A DNA stretch of 64,000 nucleotides from Haliovirga abyssi (lineage in GTDB: Bacteria; Fusobacteriota; Fusobacteriia; Fusobacteriales; Haliovirgaceae): assembly GCF_030295325.1 (NCBI RefSeq), contig NZ_AP027059.1:1054001-1118000 (forward strand), read 5' to 3'. A program made the translations under genes and the position numbers. Shown one piece after another: positions 9,309-32,881 of this stretch. The notes under the pieces are model-generated. The model did no database searches. It worked only from the letters and a program-made list of their open reading frames with translations, and had not been told where the DNA came from. The number at the start of each line of letters is the position of its first letter. Positions within the stretch are counted from its first letter, which is position 1.

Positions 9309-10042
9309 TAGAAAGAGATGACAAAAGAGCATTAAATGAATTGAGGAATATAAAAATAACAACAAATTATATAAAATATCCAGAAGGTTCTGTTTTGATT
9401 GAATGTGGAGATACAAAGGTTATATGTAATGCAACAGTAAATGATAAGGTGCCACCATTTTTAAGAGGAAAAGGGAAAGGATGGATTACAGCAGAATATT
9501 CTATGCTTCCTAGAGCGACTGGAACAAGAAATATGAGAGAATCTGCAAAAGGTAAACTTAGTGGAAGAACTATGGAAATACAAAGATTAATAGGAAGAGC
9601 TTTGAGAACAGGAATTGATTTGGATAAATTGGGCGAAAAAACGATTATAGTTGATTGTGATGTTATTCAAGCCGATGGGGGAACAAGAACCGCTTCTATA
9701 ACTGGAGGGTATATTGCACTTGCACTTGCAATAGATAATCTTATGAAAAAAAATAGATTAAAAGAAAATCCTTTACTTGGAAATGTAGCAGCAATAAGTG
9801 TTGGAATAGTTAAAGGAGAACCTATGTTAGACCTTAAATATTCAGAAGATTCAGTTGCTGAGGTAGATATGAATGTGATTATGAATTCAAAAAATGAATT
9901 TGTAGAAGTGCAAGGAACTGGAGAAGAAGCAACTTTTGATAGAACTGAATTGAATAAAATGTTGGATTTGGCAGAAAAAGGGATTAAAGAATTAATAGAT
10001 ATACAAAATCAAGCTATTGGTGAGGGGATAAATGAAATATAA
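9293..10042 (+). CDS. rph: Ribonuclease PH
   Basis: Phosphorolytic 3'-5' exoribonuclease that trims tRNA 3' ends. Matching segments: the [14 protein letters not shown] beginning, [48 protein letters not shown], the [18 protein letters not shown] active-site region and [12 protein letters not shown]. The ATG at 9293 has GGAGGG about 9 bases upstream; an in-frame ATG at 9305 is less well placed. The start overlaps the fumarase beta gene and the end overlaps rdgB by 11 bp. Confidence 0.94.
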
Positions 10043-10637
10043 AATTTTTCTTGCAACTAAAAACAGAGGGAAAATAGATGAATTTAAAGATATTTTTAAA
10101 AAATATAATAATATAGAACTGTTATCAATGTTAGATGGATATGAATTTCATGATGTAATAGAAGATAAAGAGACTTTTGAAGAAAATAGTCAAAAAAAAG
10201 CATTGGAGATTGCAAAAGTTGTAAAAATGTTTGTGATATCAGACGATTCCGGACTTGAAGTTAAAGCTTTAGATGGAAGACCTGGAGTTTATTCAGCAAG
10301 ATATTCAGGTGAAAATGCTACAGATGAAACAAATAATAAAAAGCTTTTGAAAGAGATGAAAGATAAAACAGAGCGAGAGGGGAAATATATTTCAGCAATA
10401 ACAATTGCTTCTCCTAGTGGTAAATATAGAACATATGTAGGAGAAATAAAAGGAAAAATATTAGATAAAGAAGTTGGAAATAAAGGTTTTGGATATGATC
10501 CGCTATTTTATGTGGAAGAATATAAAAAAACTTTTGGAGAATTAGATGAAAAATTAAAAAATAATATTAGCCATAGAGCAAATGCTATGAAAAAACTTGA
10601 TAAAGAAATTTTAGAATTTTTAAAGGCAGGTGAATAA
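10032..10637 (+). CDS. rdgB: XTP/dITP pyrophosphatase (RdgB/HAM1)
   Basis: Housekeeping nucleotidase that hydrolyses deaminated purine triphosphates, preventing their incorporation into nucleic acid. Motifs: [11 protein letters not shown] at the N-terminus, [24 protein letters not shown] in the middle (split here as SDDSGLEV and [12 protein letters not shown]), GFGYDPLFY, and the SHRANAM segment near the C-terminus. The 201-residue length is normal. rph-rdgB is a common gene pair. Confidence 0.93.
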
Positions 10638-10639
10638 TT

Positions 10640-12112: not shown

Positions 12113-12174
12113 AATTAGGCGAAAAGAGCTCATTTCCAATGTGGTTAAGTATTGGATTTTGGTTTAGTGGCTTA

Positions 12175-12281
12175 TAGACCTCATCCCCCAACCCCTTCTC
12201 CTAACTTAGGAGAAGGGGAGTTAAATAACAAAAAAGTCCTCTCCTAAGTTAGGAGAGGATTTAGGTGATGCCTGAAAATGG
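12175..12281. repeat. Double-hairpin dispersed repeat, copy 1
   Basis: This is a GC-rich element in AT-rich surroundings. Hairpin 1 (12192-12218) has perfect 13-bp arms of CCCCTTCTCCTAA type around one base. Hairpin 2 (12237-12259) is close to the reverse complement of hairpin 1's core. Short inverted ends (TAGACCTCA left, GGTGATGCCTGA right) frame them. A second copy lies at 53842-53948. The structure recalls REP- or MITE-like elements; no transposase is nearby. Confidence 0.75.
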
Positions 12282-12446: not shown

Positions 12447-13814
12447 ATGGATATATCGAAGAAAATATTAAATAGTATAAGTGAAGGAGTTTTTACAATA
12501 AATGATGAATGGAAAATAACTTCTTTTAATAAAGCAGCTGAAAAAATAACTGGTTATAAAAGAGAAGAAGTGATGGGAAAATATTGTAAAAATATATTTA
12601 AGAGTAATAAATGTAGTAAAGGTTGTCCTATGCTTGAAGTTATAGAGTATGATGAGCCAAAAGAAGAAAAAAGTGAAATGAATATAATTGACAAAGCAGG
12701 TAAAATAGTGCCAATAAGAGTTAAAAATTATTCTTTGAAAAATTCTGTTGGAGAAACCATTGGTGGAATTGAACTATTTGAAGATATACGAGAGATTATA
12801 GAACTGAAAAAGAGATTAAACGAAGAAAAAACTATTATAAGAGAATCAGATAAAATGGAAAAAATAATCGAATTAGCTAATGTTGCTTCCAAGTCGGATT
12901 CTACAATATTAATAACTGGAGAGACTGGAACAGGTAAAGAAGTTATAGCTAATTATATTTATAAAAATAGTGAAAGAAAAAACAGACCTTTTATAAAATT
13001 AAATTGTGCAGCACTGCCAGGAAGTGTTTTAGAATCGGAGCTTTTTGGGTATGAAAAAGGAGCTTTTACAGGGGCTGTAAAAACTAAAAAAGGATATTTT
13101 GAATTAGCGGATAAAGGAACAATATTTTTGGATGAAATAGGAGAATTAGAATATGGATTTCAAGCTAAGTTATTGAGAGTATTGCAAGAAGGAGAATTTT
13201 ATAGAATTGGAGGGGAAAAGTTAGTAAAAGTAGATATTAGAATTATAGCAGCTACAAATAAAGATTTAAAAAAAGAGGTTGTTGAGAAAAAATTTAGGGA
13301 GGATCTTTATTATAGATTGAATATATTTAATTTGCATATGCCTGCATTAAGAGATAGAAAAGAAGATATATTACCTTTGGTGTATAGTTTTATAAATAAA
13401 TTCAAAGTTAAATTTGAAAAAAATATAATGGGTATTTCAAAAGATGCTTTAAATGTTTTGGTTAATTATAGTTATCCTGGTAATATTCGGGAATTGGAAA
13501 ATATTATTGAACATAGTTTTATAGTTGCTAAAAATAATATGATTATGGTTGGAGACTGGCCAAATAATTTGGTAGAGAATAAATCTATTAAAAATAATGT
13601 GGAAAATGAAATTAAACAAAATGATAAGCTTGTCGAATTGAATGAAAATATTGAAATAAAGCCTTTAGATGAATTTGAAAAAGAATATATTTTGGGAGTT
13701 CTTAAAAAATTTGAAGGAAATAAGGCAAAGACTGCAAGAGAATTAAAAATTGATATAAAAAAATTGTATAGGCGATTAGAAAAATGGAGAAAAAATAGTC
13801 AAAACGGCATGTAG
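12447..13814 (+). CDS. Sigma-54-dependent transcriptional activator with PAS domain
   Basis: Enhancer-binding protein that would open sigma-54 RNA polymerase promoters. Order: PAS sensor (about 1-110), AAA+ domain with Walker A GETGTGKE (158-165) and the sigma-54 contact loop GAFTGA (205-210), and a Fis-type helix-turn-helix near the C-terminus (about 415-450). The PAS domain holds a Cys triad (C47, C56, C60) that could sense metal or redox state (inference). It heads the ORP-like cluster; the Desulfovibrio ORP operons are likewise controlled by sigma-54 and a cognate activator. The ATG start gives 455 residues. Confidence 0.92.
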   Translation: MDISKKILNSISEGVFTINDEWKITSFNKAAEKITGYKREEVMGKYCKNIFKSNKCSKGCPMLEVIEYDEPKEEKSEMNIIDKAGKIVPIRVKNYSLKNSVGETIGGIELFEDIREIIELKKRLNEEKTIIRESDKMEKIIELANVASKSDSTILITGETGTGKEVIANYIYKNSERKNRPFIKLNCAALPGSVLESELFGYEKGAFTGAVKTKKGYFELADKGTIFLDEIGELEYGFQAKLLRVLQEGEFYRIGGEKLVKVDIRIIAATNKDLKKEVVEKKFREDLYYRLNIFNLHMPALRDRKEDILPLVYSFINKFKVKFEKNIMGISKDALNVLVNYSYPGNIRELENIIEHSFIVAKNNMIMVGDWPNNLVENKSIKNNVENEIKQNDKLVELNENIEIKPLDEFEKEYILGVLKKFEGNKAKTARELKIDIKKLYRRLEKWRKNSQNGM

Positions 13815-13879
13815 GTGCATAAAGGTATGCTGTTTTGGGATGGTATCTATATAAAGAATGTTTTATTTCAAATTAATAA

Positions 13880-13909
13880 TTGATATTTATGAAATAGAAT
13901 TGCTATAAG
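13880..13909 (+). promoter_or_regulatory. Possible promoter of the permease pair
   Basis: TTGATA (13880-13885) and TATAAG (13904-13909) are 18 bp apart. The same stretch holds TTGCT preceded at the right distance by only one of the two expected G bases, so a sigma-54 promoter is possible but weak. Confidence 0.4.
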
Positions 13910-13978
13910 TAAGTTATTAAGAAAGTAAGTAATTAATTTAAATATAGTAAAAAATAAAATTAGGGAGGTTAAAAAAAT

Positions 13979-14461
13979 ATGATATTTTTATATATTTTGA
14001 CTTTAGTTGCAGTGTTAATATCATTTTTAATTAATGCAAAGAAAACAAAGAAAGCTGTAATTATGGGAGTGAAAAAATTATGGAAAATAACTCCAGCATT
14101 TATTGCGATTATTATAGTGGTATCAATTGTTTTATATTTAGTACCAAAGGAAATGATCGTTCATTATCTTGGTGGATCAAATACATATTTTGGAATGATT
14201 TTGGCTTTAATAATTGGGACAATAACAGTTTTACCAGGTCCTATAGTATATCCTCTTTGTGGAATACTTCTTGAGCAAGGAGTGTCATATGGTGTTATTG
14301 CTGCATTTTCAGTTTCTCTTATGCTTGTAGGAGTATTATCGTTTCCGGTTGAAAGTGCTTATTTTGGTAAAAAATTTGCTGTTTTAAGAAATTTAACAAG
14401 TCTTTTTATTGCTGTTGTTGTAGCGTTGGTATTTGCATTTTTAAATGGGAGGTTATCATGA
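13979..14461 (+). CDS. YraQ/ArsP-like half permease, first of pair
   Basis: Small inner membrane protein of 160 residues with about four or five hydrophobic segments. The HYLGG segment and the Gly/Pro-rich LPGPIVYPLCG stretch resemble one half of the predicted permease family PF03773 (YraQ, ArsP). The next gene supplies a second, related half, overlapping by 4 bp, so the two probably assemble as a heterodimer. The substrate is unknown; in this cluster a metal, metalloid or sulfur compound is a reasonable guess. A strong GGAGG site precedes the ATG. Confidence 0.7.
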   Translation: MIFLYILTLVAVLISFLINAKKTKKAVIMGVKKLWKITPAFIAIIIVVSIVLYLVPKEMIVHYLGGSNTYFGMILALIIGTITVLPGPIVYPLCGILLEQGVSYGVIAAFSVSLMLVGVLSFPVESAYFGKKFAVLRNLTSLFIAVVVALVFAFLNGRLS

Positions 14462-14994
14462 AAAAATCAAAAAATAATAAGATTAAAAAAATTATTTTTG
14501 CTCTGTTTTTTATTTTTATATCTTTTTCTTATTTTATAAAATTTACTCCAGGTGTTTTAGTAGGTAAAAATTTTATTGATTTTGCACTTCAAATGATTGA
14601 AATGTTACCACCGATATTTATATTAGTTGGGCTTTTTGATGTATGGGTAAAAAAAGAAACTATAGAAAAACATTTAGGTAAAGATGGTGGGTTTAAAAGC
14701 TATATTTTGGTTTTTATATTGGCAGCTCCAATGGCTGGAGGGCTTCTAGCAGCGTTTCCAATTGCATATGCTATCTATAAAAAAGGAGCAAGGCTTACAG
14801 TTATGCTTGTTTTTTTAGGTGCTGTTGGGATAGGACGTGTTCCTATGGTTCTTTTTGAAGCTTCATTTTTGGGAATAAAGTTTAGTGCTATTCGTTTAAT
14901 TGTATCTATTCCTCTTGTAATTATTACAGGAGTTATGTTAGGAAGAGCATTGGAAAAAAGAGAATATAAATTACCTGAAAATAATCAAAATTAA
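14458..14994 (+). CDS. YraQ/ArsP-like half permease, second of pair
   Basis: Membrane protein of 178 residues with a basic N-terminus and about five hydrophobic segments. The HLGKDGG stretch and LAAPMAGGLLAAFPIAYA correspond to the HYLGG and Pro/Gly-rich segments of the preceding protein, as expected for two halves of a PF03773-type permease. Translation is coupled (ATGA overlap). Full-length members normally carry both halves in one chain, so this looks like a split permease. Function is inferred from family and neighbours only. Confidence 0.7.
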   Translation: MKKSKNNKIKKIIFALFFIFISFSYFIKFTPGVLVGKNFIDFALQMIEMLPPIFILVGLFDVWVKKETIEKHLGKDGGFKSYILVFILAAPMAGGLLAAFPIAYAIYKKGARLTVMLVFLGAVGIGRVPMVLFEASFLGIKFSAIRLIVSIPLVIITGVMLGRALEKREYKLPENNQN

Positions 14995-15034
14995 TATAAG
15001 TTAATATTTTTGAAACAAATTTGCTTATATTAAT
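14990..15034 (+). promoter_or_regulatory. Inverted repeat between permease pair and TPR-like gene
   Basis: Perfect 11-bp arms (ATTAATATAAG at 14990-15000, its complement at 15024-15034) flank TTGAAA, and a TATAGA follows at 15034. It may be an operator or RNA stem. Confidence 0.45.
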
Positions 15035-15050
15035 ATAGAGGGTGGTGGAA

Positions 15051-15416
15051 ATGAGAAATAGACATAGATGTGGGATGAGAATGAGTGCAAATAAATATTT
15101 GATGATGAAAGATTATGAAACTGCATATAATTTATATAAGAATATGATTGATGAAAATGGAACCGTTAATGATTATTTAAAATATATATTTATTCTTGTT
15201 ATGTTAAATAGAAGTTATGAAGCTGTAGAAATCGTAAATAAAATATTGCCATCTGCTATAAAATGTAAAGGATATGGGCTATTAAAAGAATTAATAAAAG
15301 ATAATATTGATATAATTAGAGATAGAGGAGATATTATAGGAGAAAAAATATTTAAACTTATTTTAGGAGATGGAAAAGATGGAAGTAACAGTTTTGATGG
15401 AAAACCTTGTATATAA
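15051..15416 (+). CDS. Small TPR-like protein of unknown function
   Basis: A 121-residue, mostly helical protein. One tetratricopeptide-like unit is visible (about residues 11-40, KDYETAYNLYKNMI pattern), followed by further helices. The N-terminus is basic with a CGMRM motif. AGGGTGGTGG precedes the ATG. Its 3' end overlaps the next gene by 38 bp, suggesting co-expression. Possibly an adaptor in the cluster; no function is assigned. Confidence 0.6.
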   Translation: MRNRHRCGMRMSANKYLMMKDYETAYNLYKNMIDENGTVNDYLKYIFILVMLNRSYEAVEIVNKILPSAIKCKGYGLLKELIKDNIDIIRDRGDIIGEKIFKLILGDGKDGSNSFDGKPCI

Positions 15417-20683: not shown

Positions 20684-21523
20684 ATGAGAATAGCTGTTTT
20701 AAGTGGAAAAGGTGGAACAGGGAAAACAACAATATCTACTAATTTATCTATAAATATAGAAAATTCTATGTTGATTGATACTGATGTAGAGGAACCAAAT
20801 TCACATATTTTTTTGAAACCAAATATAACTGAAACAAAAAGTGTGAAAGTTGAGTACCCTGTTGTAGATAATGAAAAATGTACTTTATGTGGAAAATGTG
20901 GAGATTTTTGTAATTTTAATGCAATAATACCAGCTAAAAATACAGTTTTAGTATTTCAAGAGAGTTGTCATTCATGTGGTGGATGCAAAATGGTTTGTCC
21001 AACTGGGGCGATAACATATTCTAAAAGAGAAATTGGTAAAATATATGAAGGCGATACTAAATTTGGTATTAAGATGAAATATGGAGAGCTAAATTTAGGT
21101 GAAATGTCAGGTGTAAAAATTATAGAAGAATTAAAAGAGATTACTAAAAATGAAGATATTGTAATAATTGATTCTCCACCTGGTACTTCTTGTTCAACTG
21201 TTGCTGCAGTAGAAGATGTTGATTATGCAATAGTGGTTACAGAGCCTACTCCTTTTGGTGTAAGTGATATGAAAATGGTAGTAGAAATGTTAAGAGAAAT
21301 GAAAATTCCATTTAGTGTATTTATTAATAAAGCTGGTTTAGGTGATAATGAAGTTTATGAATATTGTGAAGATGAAAAAATTAAAATTATAGGCGAGGTA
21401 CTTTTTGATAAGAAAATTGCTGAATATTATTCTGAAGGGATTCCGTTTTCAACAAAAATTCCTAAATATAAGAAGTTGTTTAATGATATTTTTGAAGAAA
21501 TTTATATGGAATTTAGAAAATAA
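20684..21523 (+). CDS. MinD/ParA-type ATPase with inserted 2[4Fe-4S] ferredoxin domain (first)
   Basis: A 279-residue deviant Walker P-loop ATPase (GKGGTGKTT, 8-16) interrupted by a bacterial ferredoxin module with Cys 66, 69, 72, 76 and 95, 98, 101, 105, enough for two [4Fe-4S] clusters. DSPPGTS (Walker B region) follows. Such proteins occur in pairs next to orange protein and NifX genes and are proposed to assemble or carry metal-sulfur clusters. It shares one base with the J-domain gene, so the two are translationally coupled. Confidence 0.9.
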   Translation: MRIAVLSGKGGTGKTTISTNLSINIENSMLIDTDVEEPNSHIFLKPNITETKSVKVEYPVVDNEKCTLCGKCGDFCNFNAIIPAKNTVLVFQESCHSCGGCKMVCPTGAITYSKREIGKIYEGDTKFGIKMKYGELNLGEMSGVKIIEELKEITKNEDIVIIDSPPGTSCSTVAAVEDVDYAIVVTEPTPFGVSDMKMVVEMLREMKIPFSVFINKAGLGDNEVYEYCEDEKIKIIGEVLFDKKIAEYYSEGIPFSTKIPKYKKLFNDIFEEIYMEFRK

Positions 21524-21807
21524 TGGATATTTATAAAAAATATTTAGAAGCTATAAAAATACTTGAATTACCTTTGAAGTTTAATTTGAAAATTTTAAAG
21601 AAAAGATATAAAGATATGATTAAAATGTATCATCCTGATTTGAATAATGATGAAGAGATGGAATTGAAAATTCATGAAATAAAAGAAGCTTATGAAATTC
21701 TTTTGAGTTATTTTGAAAATTATAAATTAAATTTTGAAAAAGATAATTTTAAACTTTCTCCAAAAGAATTATATGAGAAAAAATTAATGAATGATTGGAA
21801 AATTTAA
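21523..21807 (+). CDS. Mini J-domain (DnaJ-like) protein
   Basis: A 94-residue protein consisting of little more than a J domain (about 12-66), with helix II LKKRYKDMIKMY, the catalytic HPD tripeptide, and helix III ending in EAYEILL. There is no Gly/Phe or zinc region, so it is not a general DnaJ. J proteins of this kind recruit Hsp70 to specific clients; HscB does so in Fe-S assembly. Sitting between two MinD-ferredoxin ATPases it may play the same role here (inference). It starts on the stop codon of the preceding gene. Confidence 0.85.
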   Translation: MDIYKKYLEAIKILELPLKFNLKILKKRYKDMIKMYHPDLNNDEEMELKIHEIKEAYEILLSYFENYKLNFEKDNFKLSPKELYEKKLMNDWKI

Positions 21808-21872
21808 AAATATTGTTTTTGAATTATTTTTTTAAAAACAGAAATGAGAAAATATAAAGGAAGGTTTTTAAA

Positions 21873-22733
21873 ATGGATATTAATGAAATAGTTATAATTT
21901 CAGGAAAAGGTGGGACAGGAAAGACAACATTAACAGCATCGTTAATACCTTATTTTGAAGAGTTAGTTGTTGGAGATTGTGATGTTGACGCTCCTGATTT
22001 AAAAATTCTTTTTGAAGGTGATAATATTACTAAAGAAGGATTTGTAGGTACTAAAAAAGCTATTATTAATGAAGAAAAATGTATAAAATGTGGAAAATGT
22101 TATAGAGCTTGTACTTTTGGAGCAATAACAAAAGAGATAAAAATGAACACTCCTAAATGTGAAGGTTGTGGAGTTTGTGAATATGTTTGCCCAGTTGGAG
22201 CAATAGAATTAAAAGATGCTGTAGTAGGGAATTTGTTTGTTTCGAATACCAATTATGGAAAAATGGTTCATGCGAGATTAATACCTGGAGAGGAAACATC
22301 GGGAAAATTAGTTTCTGCAGTTAGAAAAAGAGCTAAAAAAATAGCTTTAGAAGAAAATAAAAAAAATATTATAATAGATGGAGCTCCTGGTGTGGCTTGT
22401 AACGTAATTTCATCAATAACAGGAGCAAAAAAAGTAGTAATTGTAACTGAACCAACTTTTTCAGGATTGCATGATTTAGAAAGAGTATATGAAGTGACTC
22501 AAAAATTTAGATTGCCAGTTTTAGTTGTTATTAATAAGTATGATCTGTCTATAGAAATGAGTAATAAAATAGAAGAATTTTGTAAAGAAAAGAATATAGA
22601 GTTAGGATTAAAAATACCTTTTAATAAAAAAATGGTAAAAGCGATTGTAGATAAAAAAATTCCTTCATTAGCTGAAAAAGAATTTTTTGACAGTTTCGGA
22701 TTTGGAGAGTTTATTGAGAAGTTGAAAAAATAG
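21873..22733 (+). CDS. MinD/ParA-type ATPase with inserted 2[4Fe-4S] ferredoxin domain (second)
   Basis: A 286-residue paralogue of the first ATPase: P-loop GKGGTGKTT (11-19), GDCDVDAPD switch, ferredoxin insert with Cys 70, 73, 76, 80 and 96, 99, 102, 106, and DGAPGVAC in place of DSPPGTS. The two probably act together, as the paired ATPases of the Desulfovibrio ORP complex do (family knowledge). A good ribosome binding site, AAGGAAGG, precedes the ATG. The 2[4Fe-4S] ferredoxin gene follows 17 bp downstream. Confidence 0.9.
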   Translation: MDINEIVIISGKGGTGKTTLTASLIPYFEELVVGDCDVDAPDLKILFEGDNITKEGFVGTKKAIINEEKCIKCGKCYRACTFGAITKEIKMNTPKCEGCGVCEYVCPVGAIELKDAVVGNLFVSNTNYGKMVHARLIPGEETSGKLVSAVRKRAKKIALEENKKNIIIDGAPGVACNVISSITGAKKVVIVTEPTFSGLHDLERVYEVTQKFRLPVLVVINKYDLSIEMSNKIEEFCKEKNIELGLKIPFNKKMVKAIVDKKIPSLAEKEFFDSFGFGEFIEKLKK

Positions 22734-22750
22734 AAAAAGGAGTGAAAAAA

Positions 22751-23050
22751 ATGCCTTGGATAAAAACAAATGAATGTAAAGGATGTGCTAAATGCATATC
22801 AGTATGTCCAGTTAATGCAATTTCAATGATAGATTCAAAAGCTGTAATAGATCAAAAAAAATGTATTAATTGTGGTGCTTGTTTAACTGTGTGCCCATTT
22901 GATATTATTAGACCAAATTCTGAAAATCCTGAATTGAAAGGTTTAGGAAATGGAAGAGGAGGCGGTCGTGGAAGAACTGGTGGCGGATTAGGCGGACAGG
23001 GTTCTGGACTTGGAAACGGCGGCGGAAGAGGTATGGGACGTGGCAGATAA
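22751..23050 (+). CDS. 2[4Fe-4S] ferredoxin with Gly/Arg-rich tail
   Basis: A 99-residue protein. Residues 1-50 are a classical dicluster ferredoxin (Cys 9, 12, 15, 19 and 38, 41, 44, 48). Residues 63-99 are almost only Gly, Arg, Leu and Gln. The tail resembles the Gly-rich part of the DUF5320 protein at 17.6 kb. AAGGAG (22737-22742) fits the ATG at 22751, not the GTG at 22742. The tail's coding sequence overlaps the start of the MFS gene by 11 bp. Confidence 0.85.
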   Translation: MPWIKTNECKGCAKCISVCPVNAISMIDSKAVIDQKKCINCGACLTVCPFDIIRPNSENPELKGLGNGRGGGRGRTGGGLGGQGSGLGNGGGRGMGRGR

Positions 23051-24263
23051 AAAATCAATTAGATTAACTTATATTAGCTTTGGATGGCATAGTTTTTTTC
23101 TTGCGCTTACTATGTCAATGATAGATTTTAATACTGTTTTTCCATCATTGATTTCAGAATTATCTAAATCAAAACTTATATTTGGAGCATTATATGCAAT
23201 TTTGCTAGGTGCTCCAAATATTTTCAATATGATTTTTAGTCATCATATGAGAAAACATCATTATAAAAAGAAATATTTGCTTTTAGGAATTTATATGAGA
23301 GGATTTTCCTTTTTAGGGATGTCTTTATCAGTAATATTTTTTGCGAAAAGTAATCCAATGTTAGCTATTACTCTTTTTTTCTTGTGGATATTTATATTTT
23401 CAGCAAGTGCAGGATTTGCAGGAATAGCTTATTCTAATTTAATAGCAAAACTATTATCTACGCATGAAAGAGGTCAATTTTATGCAACAAAACAATTTGT
23501 AGGAAGTACAGCAAGTATTATTGGTGGAATAGTTATAGGAAAAATATTTAAAAATAGTGGTTTTGCGTATCCTTATAATTATGGGATAGCTTTATTCATA
23601 GGATTTGCGGGATTAGTAATTGCTTCTTTGGGGTTTTATGCTATAAAAGAACCGTCTTCAGAAATTGAAACAGATGATTATAATTTTTTAGAATTTTTAA
23701 AGCAAGTACCAGAGATTTTAAGAAATAATAGAAAATTTTTAAATTTTATTATAGTAGAAAATATAAGTAGTTTCTCTTTGATGATATTACCATTTTATAT
23801 GGTATTTGCTAAAGATAAATTAGGAGTTGGAAAAAATTATATAGGAAAATATTTAATGTTTCAAATTTCAGGAATGGTAATTTCAAATTTGATTTGGGGA
23901 TATTTCATTAAAAGAAAAGGTACAAAAAAGATGACTGGAGATTGTATTATTATAGGAGCAATATTACCAATTTTAGCAATTATATTATCAAATTTTGGAG
24001 CAAATATTTATTCATTTTTATTTTTCATAATAGGTTTCGTAATGAGTGGAAGAAGAATAACTTTTGAGCCATATTTATTAGATATAATTCCTTCAAATAG
24101 AAGAGTTACATTTTTAGGAATTAGAGGAACATTAAATATTTTAATGATAATATTACCTTTAATTGGAGCAACTGTAATAAAATTCTTTGGATATTATACA
24201 GCATTTTTAATAGTATCTGGAGTTATGTTTTTTGCATATTATTTATTGAGAAAGGAGAATTAA
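23040..24263 (+). CDS. MFS family transporter
   Basis: About 407 residues with roughly twelve hydrophobic segments, an inner membrane carrier of the major facilitator superfamily. Start choice: the GTG at 23040 has GAAGAGG 8 bases upstream, while the TTG at 23010 lies deep in the ferredoxin tail. Basic cytoplasmic loops (KHHYKKKY) and the symmetrical layout fit MFS. Nothing shows the substrate. A NifX-like gene begins one base after the stop, so it belongs to the cluster. Confidence 0.8.
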   Translation: MADKKSIRLTYISFGWHSFFLALTMSMIDFNTVFPSLISELSKSKLIFGALYAILLGAPNIFNMIFSHHMRKHHYKKKYLLLGIYMRGFSFLGMSLSVIFFAKSNPMLAITLFFLWIFIFSASAGFAGIAYSNLIAKLLSTHERGQFYATKQFVGSTASIIGGIVIGKIFKNSGFAYPYNYGIALFIGFAGLVIASLGFYAIKEPSSEIETDDYNFLEFLKQVPEILRNNRKFLNFIIVENISSFSLMILPFYMVFAKDKLGVGKNYIGKYLMFQISGMVISNLIWGYFIKRKGTKKMTGDCIIIGAILPILAIILSNFGANIYSFLFFIIGFVMSGRRITFEPYLLDIIPSNRRVTFLGIRGTLNILMIILPLIGATVIKFFGYYTAFLIVSGVMFFAYYLLRKEN

Positions 24264-24264
24264 T

Positions 24265-24669
24265 ATGAATGAATTAATAATAGCGTGTGCTACAAATAAT
24301 GGAGAAGAATTTGTAAATGATCATTTTGGTAGTGCAAATTATTTTGATATTTATAAAATGTCAAAAGAGAGCATTGAAAAAATAGATAGAGTAGATAATA
24401 CAAGTGAAGAGGAAAAAGAGGATGATGGAATACATGGAGATCCAAATAAAGCCAAAGGAATATCTGGAATATTAAAAAAGAAAGATGTTCAAGTTGTAGT
24501 TGGTTATAAAATGGGACCAAATATCATTAGAATGAAGAAAAAATTTGTGCCTGTGATCGTTAGAAATATAAATATAAAAAATAGTTTAGAAATTGTAAAA
24601 AATAATTTTGATAAAATAGTTGAAGAATTAAATAATGGTGAAAATAGAAAACATATAGTATTAGAATAG
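24265..24669 (+). CDS. ORP/NifX-like protein, divergent
   Basis: A 134-residue dinitrogenase cofactor-family protein. It keeps the IACATNNGEEFVNDHFG opening, the FDIYKM strand and VVGYKMGPNIIRMKKKF, but has an acidic insert (about residues 43-58) where the fused and single ORP proteins have other residues. It is the third ORP-type domain of the cluster and closes it, with a terminator overlapping its stop codon. Possibly a cluster carrier or insertase partner. Confidence 0.8.
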   Translation: MNELIIACATNNGEEFVNDHFGSANYFDIYKMSKESIEKIDRVDNTSEEEKEDDGIHGDPNKAKGISGILKKKDVQVVVGYKMGPNIIRMKKKFVPVIVRNINIKNSLEIVKNNFDKIVEELNNGENRKHIVLE

Positions 24670-24692
24670 GACCTTTAGGGGTCCTATTTTTT
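24665..24692 (+). terminator. Terminator at the end of the ORP-like cluster
   Basis: Perfect 9-bp arms (AATAGGACC and complement) with a 6-base loop and a T7 tract. The stop codon lies in the first arm. A second A/T-only hairpin follows at 24695-24719. Confidence 0.9.
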
Positions 24693-24955
24693 TAGGATAA
24701 AAAAATTGATTTTTTATCCATGGTGTGATATAATGCAATGCATATTAACATTGGTATGAAATGGTTGAAAGAATATCTACTTAAGAATAAATTATAAATT
24801 TATTCAGGAAGTAAGTAATGCTATTTTTTTAACATTATTTAGTAACAAATATCCAAACATTCTAATTTTTTTATAATCTTAATTTAATATAAAATTCTAT
24901 TGATTAAAAAAATTAGGTGAAATAAAATATTAATTTTTAGAAAGGAGGTAAATAA
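24693..24955. other. Intergenic region before the flotillin operon
   Basis: No gene is seen. After the second A/T hairpin (24695-24719) the sequence is low complexity until the promoter at 24900-24928. Confidence 0.6.
24900..24928 (+). promoter_or_regulatory. Promoter of the flotillin/AAA ATPase operon
   Basis: TTGATT (24900-24905) and TAAAAT (24923-24928) are 17 bp apart. AAGGAGG and the first ATG follow within 30 bp. Confidence 0.6.
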
Positions 24956-25600
24956 ATGAACTATATAAAATACGCTTTTACTGGTATTAATATATTGCCA
25001 TCAATATTTTTACTTATTATAATTTTTTATTGGTTAATGACTATACTAGGATTTTTTTCAATTGATTCGGGACTGGATATTAATACAGATGCAAATTCTG
25101 ATTTAGAGCTTAATTCTGAATTAGAAGGTGATATTAATTTAGGAAATCTTTCAATAGCTAGTAAAATTTTTGAATTTTCAAATATGGGAGCAATGCCATT
25201 TATGGTCTATTCAACTTTCTATGTTATTGTCTTGTGGACATTATCAATGTTGACTTATTACATAAAAATATCGCAAAATATATTTATATCTTTAATAATT
25301 TTTATTATCAATTTCATCTTAACTTTTTTCTTAACTAAAATAATAACTCTTCCCTTAGTTAAATTTTTTAAATCTTTTAATATTGATGAAAAAAATAAGA
25401 TAATTGGCTCTATATGTACATTAAAATCAACTATTGAAGGAGAACATATAGGATTAGCTGAAGTAGAAAATGATAAATATCCAATAGTAATAAATGTAAA
25501 AAGCCCAAATAAGAAAATAGAAAAAGGAGAACAGGCTATTGTAATATCAGAAGAAAATAACAATAATTTATATATAGTAGAAAAAAATAATTTTTTTTAG
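24956..25600 (+). CDS. OB-fold membrane protein, YqiJ/NfeD-like partner of flotillin
   Basis: A 214-residue integral membrane protein: helix at about 13-35, an Asp/Asn/Glu-rich loop (about 40-70), two or three helices (about 80-145), then a soluble beta domain (about 150-214) with an NfeD/OB-like pattern (GSICTLKSTIEGEHIGLAEV). Proteins of this plan (YqiJ, DUF1449) are encoded next to flotillins and thought to partner them in membrane microdomains. Here the flotillin follows 18 bp later. Assignment rests on layout and context. Confidence 0.75.
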   Translation: MNYIKYAFTGINILPSIFLLIIIFYWLMTILGFFSIDSGLDINTDANSDLELNSELEGDINLGNLSIASKIFEFSNMGAMPFMVYSTFYVIVLWTLSMLTYYIKISQNIFISLIIFIINFILTFFLTKIITLPLVKFFKSFNIDEKNKIIGSICTLKSTIEGEHIGLAEVENDKYPIVINVKSPNKKIEKGEQAIVISEENNNNLYIVEKNNFF

Positions 25601-25618
25601 AAAGGAGAATGGTTAGAA

Positions 25619-27655
25619 ATGATTGAGTTTATTTTGTATGTGGTAGGTATTGTAGTTTTTTTGTTATTCATTGGAATACCAATGATTTTAAGTATGTTTT
25701 ATAAGAAGGTAGTTCAAGGGAAAACCATAGTTAGAAATGGAATAGGAGGTTCAAAAGTTTCTTTTTCTGGAATATGGGTAATTCCTATATTGCATAAATT
25801 TGAAAAAATGGACATTTGTGTTAAAAGAGTAGAAATTGCTAGAGAAGGTAAAGAGGGTTTGATTTGCAAGGATAATTTAAGGGCAGACATAAGAGTAGCT
25901 TTTTTTGTAAAAGTAAATCATACTGAAGAGGATGTTTTGAGGGTTGCTAAATCTTTAGGAACAGAAAAAGCGTCTGATACTGTAACTTTAATGGAGTTTT
26001 TTGATGCTAAATTTTCAGAAGCATTAAAAACAGTGGGTAAAAAATTTGATTTTGTGCAATTATATACTGAAAGAGATAAATTTAAAGATGAAATTTTACA
26101 AGTTATAGGTACTGACTTAAATGGATATATTTTGGAAGATGCTGCAATTGATTATTTGGAACAAACAGATATTAATTTATTAAATCCTGATAATGTGTTA
26201 GATGCAGAAGGGATTAAAAAAATAACAGATTTAACAGCGAAACAACTTGTAATGGCAAATCAAATAAAAAGAGACAAAGAAAAAACTATTGTAGAACAAG
26301 ATGTAACTGCAAGAGAGGCTATATTAGAATTAGAAAAACAAAAATCTGAAGCAGAAGAAAAACAAAATAGAGAAATAGAAAATATTAAATCAAGAGAAAA
26401 TGCTCAAATAAAAATAATTCAAGAAGAGGAAAAATTAAAATCAGAAAATGCAAGAATTAAAGTAGAGGAAGAATTAATGATTGCAGAAGAAAATAAAAAT
26501 AGACAAATTATAATAGCACAAAAATCAAAAGAAGCTACAGAAGCTGTAGAAACAGAAAGAGTTGAGAAACAAAGATTATTAGAAGCTACAGAAAAAGAAA
26601 AATTAGTTTCTTTAGCTCAAATTGAAAAAGATAAAAAGATAGAGACTGAAAATAAAAATATTAAAGAGATAATAAAAGATAGAGTTATAGTTGAAAAAAG
26701 TGTAGTAGAAGAAGAAGAAAAAATAAAGGATACTAAAGAACTAGCTGAAGCTAAAAGAAAAAAAGGTGTTAGCATTACTGCAGCAGAAGCTGATGCAGAG
26801 GTTCAAGGCATAGAAAAAGTAAAATCAGCAGAAGCAGAAAAAGAAAGTGCTACAATTTTAGCAGAAAAAGAAATTATAGTTGCAGATACAGAACTAAAAA
26901 CGTCACATAAAAAAGCTGAAGCTACTAAAATATTAGCAGATGCTAAATCAGAAGAAGCAGCAATAGTAGGAATATCAGAAGCAAGAGTATTAAAAGCAAA
27001 AGCGGAAGCATATACAGCTGAAGGGCAATCAAAAGCTACAGTTATAAAATTAGAAGCTGAAGCTACAGCAAAATCGATAGAATTAAAAGGATTAGCTGAA
27101 GCTAAAACTACAAAAGAAAAAGCATTAGCTGAAGCAGAAGGGATAACTAAAAAAGCTGAAGCAATGAAAAAACTTGATTCTGTTGGAAAAGAACATGAAG
27201 AATTTAAATTAAAACTTAATAAGGAAAAAGAGGTAGAACTTGCTGAAATAAATATTCAAAAAGATGTTGCTGTATCACAAGCGGAAGTTGTAAAAGAAGG
27301 ACTTAAAAATTCTAATATTGATATAGTTGGAGGAGATACTATATTCTTTGATAAATTAGTAAAATCAATTACTTTAGGAAAACAAGTTGATAGAGTGATA
27401 GATAATTCGGATGTTTTAAAAAATATAAACGATACTTTTTTTGATGGAGATGCTGAAAATTTTAAAAAACAATTAAAATCATTTGTTTCTAATTTTAATT
27501 TAAATACAGAAGATGTTAAGAATCTTACTATATCAAGCGCTATATCTAAAATGATGAAAAATTCTCCAAATAAAAATGATTTTTTTAATGGTATTTTAGA
27601 TAAAGTTAATAAAATAGGAATTGGAGATAAACTTGTCTCAACAATAATGGATTAG
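25619..27655 (+). CDS. Flotillin family (YqiK-like) membrane scaffold protein
   Basis: 678 residues. An N-terminal hydrophobic helix (about 3-25) is followed by a band 7/SPFH domain (about 30-200) and then a very long charged coiled coil (about 205-560) rich in Ala, Glu and Lys, with the repeated AEA pattern of flotillins. A C-terminal globular region (about 565-678) completes it. Flotillins oligomerise into membrane scaffolds. The gene lies between the OB-fold membrane protein and the giant ATPase (next start 10 bp after its stop), so the three likely form one machine. Confidence 0.9.
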   Translation: MIEFILYVVGIVVFLLFIGIPMILSMFYKKVVQGKTIVRNGIGGSKVSFSGIWVIPILHKFEKMDICVKRVEIAREGKEGLICKDNLRADIRVAFFVKVNHTEEDVLRVAKSLGTEKASDTVTLMEFFDAKFSEALKTVGKKFDFVQLYTERDKFKDEILQVIGTDLNGYILEDAAIDYLEQTDINLLNPDNVLDAEGIKKITDLTAKQLVMANQIKRDKEKTIVEQDVTAREAILELEKQKSEAEEKQNREIENIKSRENAQIKIIQEEEKLKSENARIKVEEELMIAEENKNRQIIIAQKSKEATEAVETERVEKQRLLEATEKEKLVSLAQIEKDKKIETENKNIKEIIKDRVIVEKSVVEEEEKIKDTKELAEAKRKKGVSITAAEADAEVQGIEKVKSAEAEKESATILAEKEIIVADTELKTSHKKAEATKILADAKSEEAAIVGISEARVLKAKAEAYTAEGQSKATVIKLEAEATAKSIELKGLAEAKTTKEKALAEAEGITKKAEAMKKLDSVGKEHEEFKLKLNKEKEVELAEINIQKDVAVSQAEVVKEGLKNSNIDIVGGDTIFFDKLVKSITLGKQVDRVIDNSDVLKNINDTFFDGDAENFKKQLKSFVSNFNLNTEDVKNLTISSAISKMMKNSPNKNDFFNGILDKVNKIGIGDKLVSTIMD

Positions 27656-27665
27656 GGTGATTAAA

Positions 27666-30600
27666 ATGGGAAATGTGGAAACTATAGAAAAAACAGAAGA
27701 AAAAAAAGGTTCTAAATTTGAAGCATATAATGTAATTAGAAAAAGATTAGTAGAACAATCTAATGTTTTAAAAGATAAAATTGACAAATTGAATGTAGAT
27801 AGAATTAAAATATTTGGAAAAATAGAAAATGGGATAAAAAAAACAGAGATGATTGTAACTGAAAATAGTTGTATTCCACGTGACATTGTTCCTATACAAA
27901 ACAAATTAATTTTAGGATACAATGTTCAAATGGGATTAAAAACAACAACAGATATTTCTGATATTTTTTCTATATATGAGTATAATGAAGACAGTTTAAA
28001 AAAAGTAGGATATGAATTAATAGATGACGATAAATTTAAAAAAGATTTAAAAGATTTATATAAGTATTATAAAGAGAGTTTCTTTGCAAAATTTTTTGAA
28101 AAAGAAAATATTTTACATATGGTTTTTCAAAATGGGAAAAATGAAGAGGATATAAAAAGTTTTAAATGGATTTTAACTTCTGAGAATAAATTTGTGTATC
28201 TTGGAAATAGATTTAGTCACGAAGTAGAATTTCCTAAACAGCAAGAATTAAATTGGATAAAAACTAAAAGAGAAGACCAGATATCTGGTCTTCACCCTCA
28301 TATTTCGATAAACGATAAAATTTTTGTAGAGACCATTGAAGGAGATTTAACTTTAAAAATAGAAAATAATACTGAAACAGGTAAAGGGATATACTCTGAA
28401 GAAGTTGAAAATTTAGATCAAAATTTAGATGATTCAGAAATATATTATGCTGAGGTAGGAAATTTAATATTATTAAAAATAAAACCTTATCAAGAGAAAA
28501 CATTTAGAAATCTTGTCTTTAATGAAAAGACAAAAGAAGTCATTAAAGTTGATGGAATAGAAGAAGCTTGTGTTTTATTACCAGAAAATCAAGGAATAAT
28601 TTTTCCAAATGGAAGTGTATTGCAATCTGGTGGTGGGAAAATATTTGATATTAATCATAAAAATATGGTGTTTGAAATTAAAAAATCTTCAAATAATGGA
28701 GAAGATTATCAATATATTTTTTATAATAAATCAAACGGGGAATATTATATTTATAATTATAATATAATAAATCAAGAAATTATAAAGCCTGTAATTTGTA
28801 ATGGATATTCTCATTTTAAAAATGGTGATATGATAGTTTTTAAAGAGGATAGTGAACCTAAAAGGAGTCACACAATACAAATATGGAAAACATCTTTTAG
28901 TGATGATAATAACATAGTTGATGAAGAAAATAAAAATAATTTTTTATATAATCTTGGAAATAAAGAGATTGTAAAATTAATGGCAGATTGTCACTCTTTA
29001 TATAAATTGATAAAAAAAGATGATAGTTATTATGGCTTATATATAGATATAAATAAAGAATCTGAAAAGATTAAAAACAATTATTTTTGGATTAATAAAA
29101 AAGAAGCTTATGGTATAAATTCTGTATTAGAAGATATAAAAAAAGCTGCAGCAGTAGCAATAAATGAATTTGATAAAGTAGATAAAGAGAAAGAAAATAA
29201 TAAAAACAGATTTAATTTGGTAAAAAGTAATGTTGAAAATATAATAAAAAACATAAAATATTCATCTTTTGAAACTATTTATGATTTTGTAAATATTTTA
29301 AATGACTTAAGAAAATCAAGAGGAGAAATTTCTAGTTTAAAAGAATTAAAATTTATAGAGATAAGCTCAATAAATAATTTAGAGAATGAAGTAAAAGAAA
29401 ATAATTTGAAAATAGCAGAAAAATGTGTTGATTTCCTTATGGGAAAAGATAGTTTAAATCCTTATGTAGATAGTGTAAAAGAGATAGAAGAAAAATTAGA
29501 TGATGTAAAAAAAGCAATTACAGGAAAAGAATTAAGTGAAAAAATAAATGAAGTTTCAGAAGAATTAGAGATTTTAATTAATGTAGTAAATAACTTAAAA
29601 ATAGAAGATACTACAAAGAGCTCTGAAATTTTGGATAAAATTTCTCTTTTATTTTCAAGATTAAATCAAAGTAAATCAAAACTGAATGGAATAGTAAAAA
29701 ATCTTGGGAGTAAAGAAAAAAAAGGAGAATTTTTTTCTAAACTTAATTTATTAAGTCAATCAGTTTCTAATTTTTTAGAGATAGCAGATACTTCTGAAAA
29801 ATTAAATAATTATCTTACTAAATTAATTGTTCAGCTAGATGAACTAGAGAGTAACTTTTCTGAATTTGAAGAGTTTATTCCTCAAATTACAGAAAAAAGA
29901 GAAGAGATAATATCAAGTTTTGAAACTAAGAAACAACAAATAGTAGATAAAAAAAATAGAAAGATTGATTCTCTTTTTAAGGCATCAGAGAGAGTTTTGA
30001 AGGGTATAGAAAATAGAGTAAATGCTTTAGATAAGATAGAAGATATTAATGAAATTTTCTCAGCTGATTTAATGATAGAAAAATTAAGAGATATAATTGA
30101 TAAATTAACAGATTTAGGAGAAGGAAATAAAGCTGACGGTTTAGAAAATAAAATTAAGGTTTTAAAAGAAAATAGTATAAAACAATTAAAAGACAAAAAA
30201 GAACTGTTTTTAGATAAAAATACTATTAAATTAGGTAATAATAATTTCTTGATTAATGATCAAAAAATAGAATTAGCTTTATTAAAAAAAGATGATGGCT
30301 TCTATTTTAATATTTCAGGAACAGATTTTTATGAAAAAATAGATAGTTCAAAAATTGAAAAATATAGAGATGTTTGGGAACAAGAGGTAATATCAGAAAA
30401 CAAAGAAGTTTATAGAGCAGAATTTTTAGCGTATAAAATATTAAAAAAATATAAAATTAATGGTGAATTAGAAAAATTATATGCTATTCCAGAAGAAGAT
30501 TTGAAAGATATAATTAAAAATTATATTTTAGATAACTTTAAAGAATATTATGTTAAAGGAGTTCATGATGTTGATGGATTTTTAATTTTGAAAGAACTCT

Positions 30601-32588
30601 TAATTAAAGAGAAGGAGCTTGAACTAGGAGCATTTGATCCAATTACTAGAGGCGCTGGAAATTTATTTTGGGAATATGGATTAGATAATAAGAATAAAGA
30701 AAAACTTTTAAAAAGATTAAAATCTATAAATCTAATTAATAAATTTTCAAATAAGAATATTGAAAATGGATTTTTACCTGAATTAGAAGAAAGAATCGGA
30801 AAATTTGTTGAAGATAAAAAATGGATAAAATATAATAATATAAAAGATATTGCTAATTATATTGCTAAAGAGATAGGCGCAAATAAATATTTTGTAATGA
30901 GTTTAGAAGCGAAAGATTTATATGAAGAGTTTATAAATCATTTGAAAACTATAGGTGCAAAAAATATTTTTGATAAATCTTTAGAGGATTTAAAAGAGGA
31001 TATCGAAGGTAAATATATTGTAATAAAAGAATGGATAAATTCTTTTATTTTAAACACAGAAAAAAGTTTTGATAGTTTTATTTATGAGTTAATATCGATA
31101 ATTATATTGGATAATTTTTCAAAAAGAAGAGTTTTAAAATTAGATACAGCAATAAAAATAAAAGGGTTAGTTGGACAACATAAATTTATAAATCAAACTA
31201 AATATGAGATTAATTATAATGATTTTATGTTAAAATTAGAAAAATTTAATTCTATAAATGTACCTAAATTTATAGAATTTCAAAAATTAAAACAAGAAGA
31301 AATATCCCAAATGAAAGAAAAGTTAAAATTTGAAGAATTTATGCCGAAGGTTTTACTTTCTTTTGTTAGAAATAAACTGATCGATAATGTTTATTTGCCA
31401 TTAATAGGAAATAATTTAGCGAAACAAATAGGAGCGGCAGGAGCAAATAAAAGAACAGATAACATGGGAGTTTTATTATTAATATCTCCTCCTGGATATG
31501 GAAAAACTACATTAGTAGAATATATATCAAATAGATTAAATATGTTAATGGTTAAGGTTAATTGTCCAACTATTGGAAATAGTGTAACTTCACTTGATCC
31601 AGAACAGGCAGATAATATAAATGCAAAAGAAGAGTTACTAAAACTAAATATGGCGTTCGAAATAGGGAATAATATTATGATATATTTAGATGACATACAA
31701 CATTCTAATCCTGAATTTTTGCAAAAATTTATATCTCTTTGCGATGGACAAAGGAAAATTGATGGAGTTTATAAAGGAAGAAGTAAAACTTATGATTTTA
31801 GAGGTAAAAAAGTTGCTGTAGTTATGGCAGGAAATCCATATACAGAAAGTGGAGCAAAATTTCAAATACCAGATATGCTTTCTAATAGAGCTGATGTTTA
31901 TAATCTTGGAGATATGTTGAAAGAAAATGAAGAAGCGTTTAAATTAAGTTATGTAGAAAATGCAGTGACTTCTAATGTATATTTAAATAAAATTTATATG
32001 AAAGATTCTTCAAATATTTATAAATTAATAAAAGTAATCGAAACAGGCAACAGAGATAATATAGAATTTAATGGAAATTATACAGAACAAGATATATCAG
32101 AAGCTTTAGAAGTTATGAAAAAAATGTTAAAAGTAAGAGATGAAGTTTTAAATGTAAATATGGAATATATATATTCTGCTTCACAAAGTGAAGAATATAG
32201 AGTAGAGCCATCTTTTAAATTACAAGGTTCTTATAGAAATATGAATAAAATTTCTGAGAAAATTATTCCAATAATGAATAATGATGAATTAAGAAAACTA
32301 ATTGAAATAAGCTATGAAAATGATTCTCAAACATTAGCAACTGATTCTGAAGCGAGTATTTTAAAATTTAAAGAAATTACAGAAAGACTGAATGAAGATT
32401 CAAGTAGACGTTGGACAGAAATAAAGAATATGTATATTAAAAATAAAACTAATGATGGCAGCGATAAAATTATATCTTTAACTAAAGCTATTCGTTCAAT
32501 AGGTAGAAGTATTGACAGGTTAAAAAAAAATAAAAAATATTCTAATGATTATAACAAGAAAAAAGATGACAGCAAAAATATAAGATAA
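27666..32588 (+). CDS. Giant AAA+ ATPase of the flotillin-associated 'DNA repair ATPase' type
   Basis: About 1640 residues. The N-terminal third (about 80-430) is beta-rich with conserved HPHISINDKIFVETIEGDLT and NLILLKIKPYQE segments that I associate with large proteins labelled DNA repair ATPase in databases. Residues about 480-860 are helical and coiled coil. The C-terminal AAA+ module has Walker A PPGYGKTT (1275-1282) and Walker B with DD (1342-1343), then NRADVYNLGD. The start is the ATG after GGGTGAT. Function is unproven; remodelling of a membrane or DNA partner is inference. A 22-bp palindrome lies at 28272-28293. Confidence 0.8.
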   Translation: MGNVETIEKTEEKKGSKFEAYNVIRKRLVEQSNVLKDKIDKLNVDRIKIFGKIENGIKKTEMIVTENSCIPRDIVPIQNKLILGYNVQMGLKTTTDISDIFSIYEYNEDSLKKVGYELIDDDKFKKDLKDLYKYYKESFFAKFFEKENILHMVFQNGKNEEDIKSFKWILTSENKFVYLGNRFSHEVEFPKQQELNWIKTKREDQISGLHPHISINDKIFVETIEGDLTLKIENNTETGKGIYSEEVENLDQNLDDSEIYYAEVGNLILLKIKPYQEKTFRNLVFNEKTKEVIKVDGIEEACVLLPENQGIIFPNGSVLQSGGGKIFDINHKNMVFEIKKSSNNGEDYQYIFYNKSNGEYYIYNYNIINQEIIKPVICNGYSHFKNGDMIVFKEDSEPKRSHTIQIWKTSFSDDNNIVDEENKNNFLYNLGNKEIVKLMADCHSLYKLIKKDDSYYGLYIDINKESEKIKNNYFWINKKEAYGINSVLEDIKKAAAVAINEFDKVDKEKENNKNRFNLVKSNVENIIKNIKYSSFETIYDFVNILNDLRKSRGEISSLKELKFIEISSINNLENEVKENNLKIAEKCVDFLMGKDSLNPYVDSVKEIEEKLDDVKKAITGKELSEKINEVSEELEILINVVNNLKIEDTTKSSEILDKISLLFSRLNQSKSKLNGIVKNLGSKEKKGEFFSKLNLLSQSVSNFLEIADTSEKLNNYLTKLIVQLDELESNFSEFEEFIPQITEKREEIISSFETKKQQIVDKKNRKIDSLFKASERVLKGIENRVNALDKIEDINEIFSADLMIEKLRDIIDKLTDLGEGNKADGLENKIKVLKENSIKQLKDKKELFLDKNTIKLGNNNFLINDQKIELALLKKDDGFYFNISGTDFYEKIDSSKIEKYRDVWEQEVISENKEVYRAEFLAYKILKKYKINGELEKLYAIPEEDLKDIIKNYILDNFKEYYVKGVHDVDGFLILKELLIKEKELELGAFDPITRGAGNLFWEYGLDNKNKEKLLKRLKSINLINKFSNKNIENGFLPELEERIGKFVEDKKWIKYNNIKDIANYIAKEIGANKYFVMSLEAKDLYEEFINHLKTIGAKNIFDKSLEDLKEDIEGKYIVIKEWINSFILNTEKSFDSFIYELISIIILDNFSKRRVLKLDTAIKIKGLVGQHKFINQTKYEINYNDFMLKLEKFNSINVPKFIEFQKLKQEEISQMKEKLKFEEFMPKVLLSFVRNKLIDNVYLPLIGNNLAKQIGAAGANKRTDNMGVLLLISPPGYGKTTLVEYISNRLNMLMVKVNCPTIGNSVTSLDPEQADNINAKEELLKLNMAFEIGNNIMIYLDDIQHSNPEFLQKFISLCDGQRKIDGVYKGRSKTYDFRGKKVAVVMAGNPYTESGAKFQIPDMLSNRADVYNLGDMLKENEEAFKLSYVENAVTSNVYLNKIYMKDSSNIYKLIKVIETGNRDNIEFNGNYTEQDISEALEVMKKMLKVRDEVLNVNMEYIYSASQSEEYRVEPSFKLQGSYRNMNKISEKIIPIMNNDELRKLIEISYENDSQTLATDSEASILKFKEITERLNEDSSRRWTEIKNMYIKNKTNDGSDKIISLTKAIRSIGRSIDRLKKNKKYSNDYNKKKDDSKNIR

Positions 32589-32881
32589 ATATCTTTAATT
32601 ATCAAATTTCAAAAATACCTATCTCATAAAATAGTAATAAATTTCTTGCTATTTTATGAGGTAAAAATTGCTAAAAGACGGGTTTTCAATTTTATTTTTA
32701 AATACGTAATAGTTTAAGTTTTTTTATAAGAAAATATGAGAAACATATCTTTCGAATATTCAGGATTGGTAACTTTTTCTAAATATATGGATAAATTTTT
32801 TAGTATCTCAATAGAAAATTTTATATACTTAATTAATTGAAAACTATATATTAGTTTTAACAATTGACATTTTAAAATCTA

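Follow-up and report, generated by a model that had tools for sequence, protein, structure and literature searches.

Overall organization of the operon

The 64,000-nucleotide window analysed here is a stretch of the Haliovirga abyssi contig NZ_AP027059.1, and coordinates are positions in this window unless another sequence is named. Three plus-strand open reading frames (ORFs), spanning positions 24956–32588, encode an inner-membrane protein of the YqiJ/YuaF type (gene 1, 24956–25600, 214 residues), a flotillin (gene 2, 25619–27655, 678 residues) and a giant AAA+ protein of the DUF3686 family (gene 3, 27657–32588, 1640 or 1643 residues). The flotillin and the ATPase form a pair conserved across phyla, and the trio may encode a flotillin-scaffolded machine that remodels membrane complexes. 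Genes 1 and 2 are separated by 18 bp and genes 2 and 3 by 10 bp, as had been stated in an earlier note made from this DNA sequence; the second gap is counted to the ATG at 27666. Gene 3 could start at GTG 27657, giving 1643 residues, or at this ATG, giving 1640 residues. The ATG is preceded by a Shine–Dalgarno-like stretch, AGGGTG, and is the more likely start. The ribosome-binding sites upstream of genes 1 and 2 are GAAAGGAG.

The gene 1 protein contains hydrophobic segments at about residues 4–40 and 82–138, as judged by hydropathy, followed by a C-terminal OB-type β domain. Taken alone, it gave no direct match in Pfam. A profile of 31 homologues, however, matched E. coli YqiJ in hhalign (95.6%, E = 1.2e-8), and 15 of these 31 homologues matched YqiJ_N at E ≤ 1 (best 3.6e-8) and three matched NfeD. 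Through these matches the OB-fold membrane protein named in the earlier note proved right at the family level.

The flotillin starts with a membrane segment (residues 1–32), continues with an SPFH/Band_7 domain and has a long Ala/Glu-rich coiled coil. Its N-terminal part matches Band_7 (PF01145) with an E-value of 9.6e-10, whereas the full-length protein gave no match in a Pfam scan, for which the composition/bias filter of HMMER is probably to blame. Its identity with E. coli YqiK is 29% over 440 residues (E = 3e-46).

Structure of the giant AAA+ protein

Pfam matches of gene 3 are PF12458 (DUF3686, E = 7.4e-163), PF25472 (DUF7902, E = 1.1e-21) and AAA (E = 5e-6). AlphaFold2 models based on alignments of 62–63 relatives were built for residues 1–520 and 840–1643, with residues 521–839 outside both. 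The first model (mean pLDDT 91.1, pTM 0.88) presents a β-propeller flanked by helices, at residues 55–413 (27819–28895) in the DUF3686 region. Its best structural matches are WD40-type propellers, the top one being the WDR domain of DCAF1 (VIA-align Z 9.8, 222 residues, RMSD, root-mean-square deviation, 5.9). Since the Foldseek TM-scores of the propeller are low, the assignment is based on VIA-align together with the pattern of strands; Ravi et al. (PMC11237479) had likewise predicted a propeller. A helical, coiled-coil region extends from about residue 487 to 840 (29115–30176), with modelled helix from 487 onward and DUF7902 at residues 598–678.

The second model (mean pLDDT 88.0) ends in an AAA+ domain at about residues 1230–1580 (31344–32396). 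A sequence-profile search of the PDB with gene 3 returned P-loop matches (p97, RuvB and others). Nothing useful came from a profile of the N-terminus, and a structure comparison was needed for the fold assignment. The nearest solved folds are NorQ (Z 16.4, 242 residues, RMSD 4.2) and CbbQ2 (Z 15.3). All ten of the best VIA-align rows belong to NorQ or CbbQ, with Z from 14.9 to 16.4, followed by dynein (14.7) and midasin (Rea1, 13.9). The pre-sensor-1 β-hairpin is present in the model (model strands 528–533 and 536–541). A β-hairpin inserted in helix 2 (H2i) serves as a criterion for MoxR proteins (PMC13036017), and at this position a conserved loop, about 14 residues long, takes its place in the model. 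The predicted domain has its closest fold among the MoxR-type remodelases and is in this sense MoxR-like. The β-rich N-terminus, long coiled coils and C-terminal AAA+ motor described in the earlier note were all borne out by Pfam and structure prediction.

The AAA+ core is complete and all its motifs are conserved: Walker A PPGYGKT (residues 1278–1284, 31488–31508), Walker B YLDDIQH (1343–1349, 31683–31703), sensor 1 GNPYTES (1392–1398, 31830–31850), an arginine-finger-like MLSNRAD (1407–1413, 31875–31895) and sensor 2 GSYRNMN (1524–1530, 32226–32246). The usual Walker B of AAA+ proteins carries Asp-Glu; here it is Asp-Asp, as it is throughout the 146 homologues in which Walker A is present. 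This invariant pair suggests slow or switch-like hydrolysis. The 1643-residue protein lacks the HEXXH motif of zinc metalloproteases, hydropathy gave no membrane segment, and the Pfam scan gave no nuclease or DNA-binding domain. Among its relatives, a 3320-residue ATPase in a Gimesia metagenome-assembled genome (MAG; L030) was rejected as an artefact of masked bases read as alanine. In a Rubripirellula MAG (L059:9902–15217) the ATPase is split into two ORFs, 9902–12232 and 12554–15217, and is broken or misassembled.

Linkage of the flotillin and the ATPase

To our analysis of neighbours, genomes of three phyla contributed a sample drawn evenly by the DUF3686 family, irrespective of similarity to the window. 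DUF3686 was carried by 8 of 296 Bacteroidota genomes and by 53 of 329 and 30 of 199 genomes in the other two phyla. Sixty sampled loci were read, and 59 of them, seven from Bacteroidota and 52 from the two other phyla, had room for a neighbour. A flotillin gene adjoins the ATPase gene on the same strand in 57 of these 59 loci, 53 of which have the YqiJ-type gene as well. The same gene order recurs in most of the 92 loci most similar to the window, where most absences are contig ends. Three individual loci appeared to be without the flotillin: in L096 the pair is adjacent but divergent, and L035 and L039 have no flotillin nearby. Such conservation of the trio is far above chance.

The linkage also holds in the opposite direction. 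Among the 296 Bacteroidota genomes, the eight best matches of the window's flotillin (52–59% identity) fall in the eight DUF3686 carriers and nowhere else; the ninth has 44% identity, and its genome and all lower ones lack DUF3686. Within 98 Fusobacteriota genomes, the ATPase and its flotillin subfamily are both confined to the genome of the window. Over these 394 genomes, close relatives of the flotillin occur in exactly the nine that bear the ATPase. Because of this reciprocal co-occurrence, the flotillin subfamily appears to be dedicated to the DUF3686 ATPase. The operon proposed in the earlier note is operon-like in layout, with the flotillin and the ATPase as its conserved pair. The refuting case named in that note, ATPase homologues standing mostly apart from flotillin genes, was checked with this sample and did not apply.

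Phylogeny and acquisition of the trio

The trees of the ATPase, the flotillin and the YqiJ-type protein each place the window beside Halanaerobiia (Orenia and Halanaerobacter) with high local support, the ATPases being about 60% identical. The distance matrices of the three genes are correlated (r = 0.79, 0.76 and 0.72; permutation p = 0.001). Given this congruent placement and the single carrier among 98 Fusobacteriota, the simplest explanation is that the trio was transferred whole, and a Fusobacteriota lineage probably acquired it as a unit. The G+C content of the operon (23–26%) gives no foreign signal against that along the window (22–32%). Composition being uninformative, the transfer is deduced from the trees and the distribution.

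Relatives are found on some plasmids, including the Pseudomonas megaplasmid pQBR103, and no near DNA copy was found in plasmids. On pQBR103 (NC_009444.1, 84395–105326; L009), genes for YjfI, PspA, a rhomboid protein, DUF2491, DUF350, DUF1190 and glutathionylspermidine synthase are followed by the trio, so that this locus joins an operon of the YjfI–PspA–polyamine type with one of the trio type. An origin in phages or other mobile elements was rejected, as 50,697 phage records contained no relatives and none of 28 pattern matches in IMG/VR was confirmed.

PspA, CesT and regulator context

CesT_Tir_1 and PspA genes lie near the trio in all seven of the sampled Bacteroidota loci and in 25–28 of the most similar loci, and a PspA homologue is located directly upstream of the trio in a Kiritimatiellota genome. 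A divergent helix-turn-helix (HTH) regulator gene precedes the CesT–PspA–YqiJ–flotillin–ATPase cluster in locus L006 (2562–3347, minus strand) and in some 24 other loci of Bacteroidota. Both of the HTH regulators scanned, that of L006 among them, contain a Peptidase_S24 (LexA/CI-like) domain, one above and one below the Pfam cut-off. Neither LexA nor S24 is mentioned in the published paper on phage shock proteins (PSP).

The H. abyssi genome has a single PspA gene with a chaperone-like CesT_Tir_1 gene directly 5′ of it, at about 282,270–283,370 of the contig. This pair lies about 0.8 Mb from the trio among glycosyltransferase-like genes, in a region that looks like one for surface-sugar synthesis. 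The full version of the operon described by Ravi et al. has a CesT/Tir–PspA dyad in the same operon; the H. abyssi operon is without it, and abbreviated versions without the dyad are published (PMC11237479). Co-transfer of the dyad into H. abyssi was also considered, and it is weakened by a related CesT–PspA pair in one other Fusobacteriota genome only (G041, L176), which has no ATPase, and by Orenia and Halanaerobacter, where no CesT of this kind was found at those PspA genes that were read.

Transcription signals and neighbouring genes

A strong terminator-like hairpin at 24663–24686 (plus strand; a 12-bp stem with a T-run behind it, −16 kcal/mol, z −3.24) closes the upstream Nitro_FeMo-Co gene and sets the trio apart from it. 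Just 3′ of it lies the best-placed candidate promoter, a σ70-type TTGATT-17-TATAAT with a TG-extended −10 element (24706–24734, plus strand), obtained from a consensus scan only. Promoter-like matches in the region, 78 versus 67 ± 7 in shuffles, are barely above chance. The single shared promoter claimed in the earlier note therefore agrees with the operon-like layout and gains little from the scan; judged from gene layout, one promoter for the trio is likely. The terminal stem-loop of that note is real: an 18-bp hairpin follows the operon at 32620–32663 (plus strand; −22.5 kcal/mol for the stretch, z −5.25), and none of 200 shuffles was equally stable. It is not a textbook intrinsic terminator, being A+T-rich and lacking a T-run immediately 3′. 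An Rfam scan of the window gave no structured-RNA match.

Upstream, at 20684–24669, lie genes for two MinD-like P-loop ATPases with 4Fe-4S domains, a small ferredoxin-like protein, an MFS transporter and the Nitro_FeMo-Co protein. The MFS gene, the one neighbour checked, occurs in none of the other trio loci. Downstream, feoA- and feoB-like genes extend from 32911 through 35360. An own-genome Band_7 search also located two further SPFH/Band_7 genes, adjacent to each other at 52030–52599 and 52956–53468, which are probably an HflK/HflC-like pair.

Discussion

The gene trio was already described in 2024, when Ravi et al. (mSystems, PMC11237479) reported YqiJ/YuaF – band-7/flotillin – β-propeller AAA+ operons and linked them to PspA envelope-stress operons. 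The H. abyssi operon has the same three components. Gene 1 corresponds to the YqiJ/YuaF-type membrane protein by its E. coli YqiJ profile and hydrophobic stretches, gene 2 to the flotillin by its Band_7 domain, membrane segment and YqiK match, and gene 3, by PF12458, AAA and the modelled propeller, to the AAA+ protein that combines a coiled coil with propeller repeats at its N-terminus. The operon resembles the abbreviated, PspA-less versions, and differs in being the sole copy among 98 Fusobacteriota genomes and in its CesT–PspA pair, which is remote and probably did not belong to the same acquisition. From the identical architecture and neighbours, we infer that the AAA+ protein of Ravi et al. 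is the DUF3686 family. Our literature search retrieved no paper naming DUF3686 or PF12458, in agreement with the view of the earlier note that no mechanism is established. Our analysis adds counts for the linkage in both directions, a MoxR-like fold assignment, a Walker B that is invariably Asp-Asp, an S24-type regulator in Bacteroidota and the isolated acquisition in Fusobacteriota.

Several known systems share parts of this arrangement. NfeD–flotillin operons were described earlier (PMC2636767), and in E. coli yqiJ-yqiK and B. subtilis yuaF-yuaG (floT) a YqiJ-type OB protein is likewise followed by a flotillin. Unlike the trio, the latter two operons have no AAA+ gene (E. coli was checked), and the ATPase-linked flotillins form a closer subfamily, with 52–59% identity across phyla versus at most 44% for other Bacteroidota flotillins. 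S. aureus FloA–NfeD also combines a flotillin and an OB-domain partner in one operon, and is reported to bind, hold and stabilise unfolded membrane proteins independently of ATP (PMC11222466), whereas the H. abyssi trio adds a dedicated ATP-driven motor. An SPFH scaffold with an AAA+ motor is known from HflK and HflC, which form a complex with the AAA+ protease FtsH (PMC13220708); FtsH, however, is a membrane-anchored protease, in contrast to the DUF3686 protein. The AAA+ domain has its closest fold in the MoxR remodelases (NorQ, CbbQ, RavA), and the DUF3686 protein differs from them in its fused propeller and long coils, its Asp-Asp Walker B and, in the model, the loop at the helix-2 insert.

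We propose that the trio could form a remodelase that is scaffolded by the flotillin, acts on membrane complexes when the envelope is stressed and is not proteolytic, a reading drawn from genes, models and analogy to which we give about an even chance. The flotillin would oligomerise on the inner membrane face, and the OB domain of its YqiJ-type partner would stabilise it as NfeD does FloA. The soluble AAA+ protein may dock there, with its N-terminal propeller and its coiled coils as contacts, and form a ring through its MoxR-like motor. Under envelope stress the flotillin would gather client proteins or complexes, and the ATPase would spend ATP on remodelling them or taking them apart. Since gene 3 has no protease motif, the clients would presumably not be degraded by it. 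Where CesT/Tir and PspA share the operon, PspA would be a likely client or co-worker. The scaffold with a remodelling ATPase imagined in the earlier note finds support in the conserved flotillin–ATPase pair, the AAA+ motifs and the MoxR-type fold matches, and its stress role has a link in the PspA/CesT operons (PMC11237479) and the LexA/CI-like regulator of Bacteroidota. A more specific form of the proposal, which we hold only tentatively, is that the system may be a non-proteolytic counterpart of HflKC–FtsH: a flotillin obligately paired with a propeller-bearing MoxR-like remodelase, with a slow, switch-like motor, a compartment for membrane-protein disassembly and LexA/CI-like control in Bacteroidota.

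Some observations weigh against the proposed remodelase. Of the 52 sampled loci with room from outside Bacteroidota, just one has PspA near the trio in the stretches that were read. In H. abyssi the link to PspA is weak, because the CesT–PspA pair is remote and a related pair occurs in another Fusobacteriota genome, which lacks the ATPase. Moreover, P. aeruginosa showed little phenotype when SPFH genes, though of other SPFH proteins, were deleted (PMC13086221).

The most serious alternative is a Vps4-like recycler, in which the ATPase would mainly disassemble PspA (ESCRT-III-type) membrane polymers and the flotillin and YqiJ-type protein would only recruit it. Such a role was proposed in general terms for PspA–AAA+ pairs (PMC11237479), and it would explain the CesT and PspA neighbours in Bacteroidota and the upstream PspA in Kiritimatiellota; H. 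abyssi itself has a PspA gene, as do, above cut-off, seven of the eight genomes probed. The near absence of PspA from the sampled loci of the two other phyla, the PspA genes of Orenia and Halanaerobacter standing without such a CesT, and the remote pair of H. abyssi with its ATPase-less relative make this explanation rather unlikely. That NorQ and CbbQ are the closest solved AAA+ structures, and that the trio happens to sit between Fe-S/FeMo-type and feoA/feoB-like genes, could instead hint at a chaperone inserting a metal or cofactor into a membrane metalloenzyme, as NorQ/NorD. We consider this improbable, as neither the window's metal-related genes nor a VWA partner, which MoxR proteins typically but not universally have, is among the recurrent neighbour families (trio, PspA, CesT and HTH/S24 regulator; rarer neighbour families were not scanned).

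The phage-response role suggested in the earlier note was not supported. The patchy distribution across phyla, the probable transfer and the occasional carriage on plasmids would suit an anti-phage defence system, but no PADLOC system model fits (P-loop matches only, best E 0.011), phage records and viral contigs yielded no relatives, the recurrent co-operonic genes are envelope-stress genes rather than nucleases or toxins, and the gene trees are congruent and deep. Defence is about as improbable as the metal chaperone. Least probable is a DNA repair ATPase. This label, mentioned in the earlier note beside flotillins, is only a Pfam and RefSeq name; in favour of the function it implies are a weak P-loop similarity to RuvB over about 50 residues and the S24-type regulator beside the Bacteroidota versions, which could link them to the SOS response. 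Against it, the best fold matches are MoxR proteins and not RuvB, the domains found do not include one acting on DNA, and the partners are membrane proteins.

The function of bacterial flotillins is, to our knowledge, a long-standing question, most of them having no obvious effector. The one-to-one pairing of a flotillin subfamily with a giant AAA+ protein gives a defined effector for a flotillin, and the trio could reveal whether ATP-driven machines, be they proteolytic, as with FtsH, or not, are a general feature of SPFH scaffolds.

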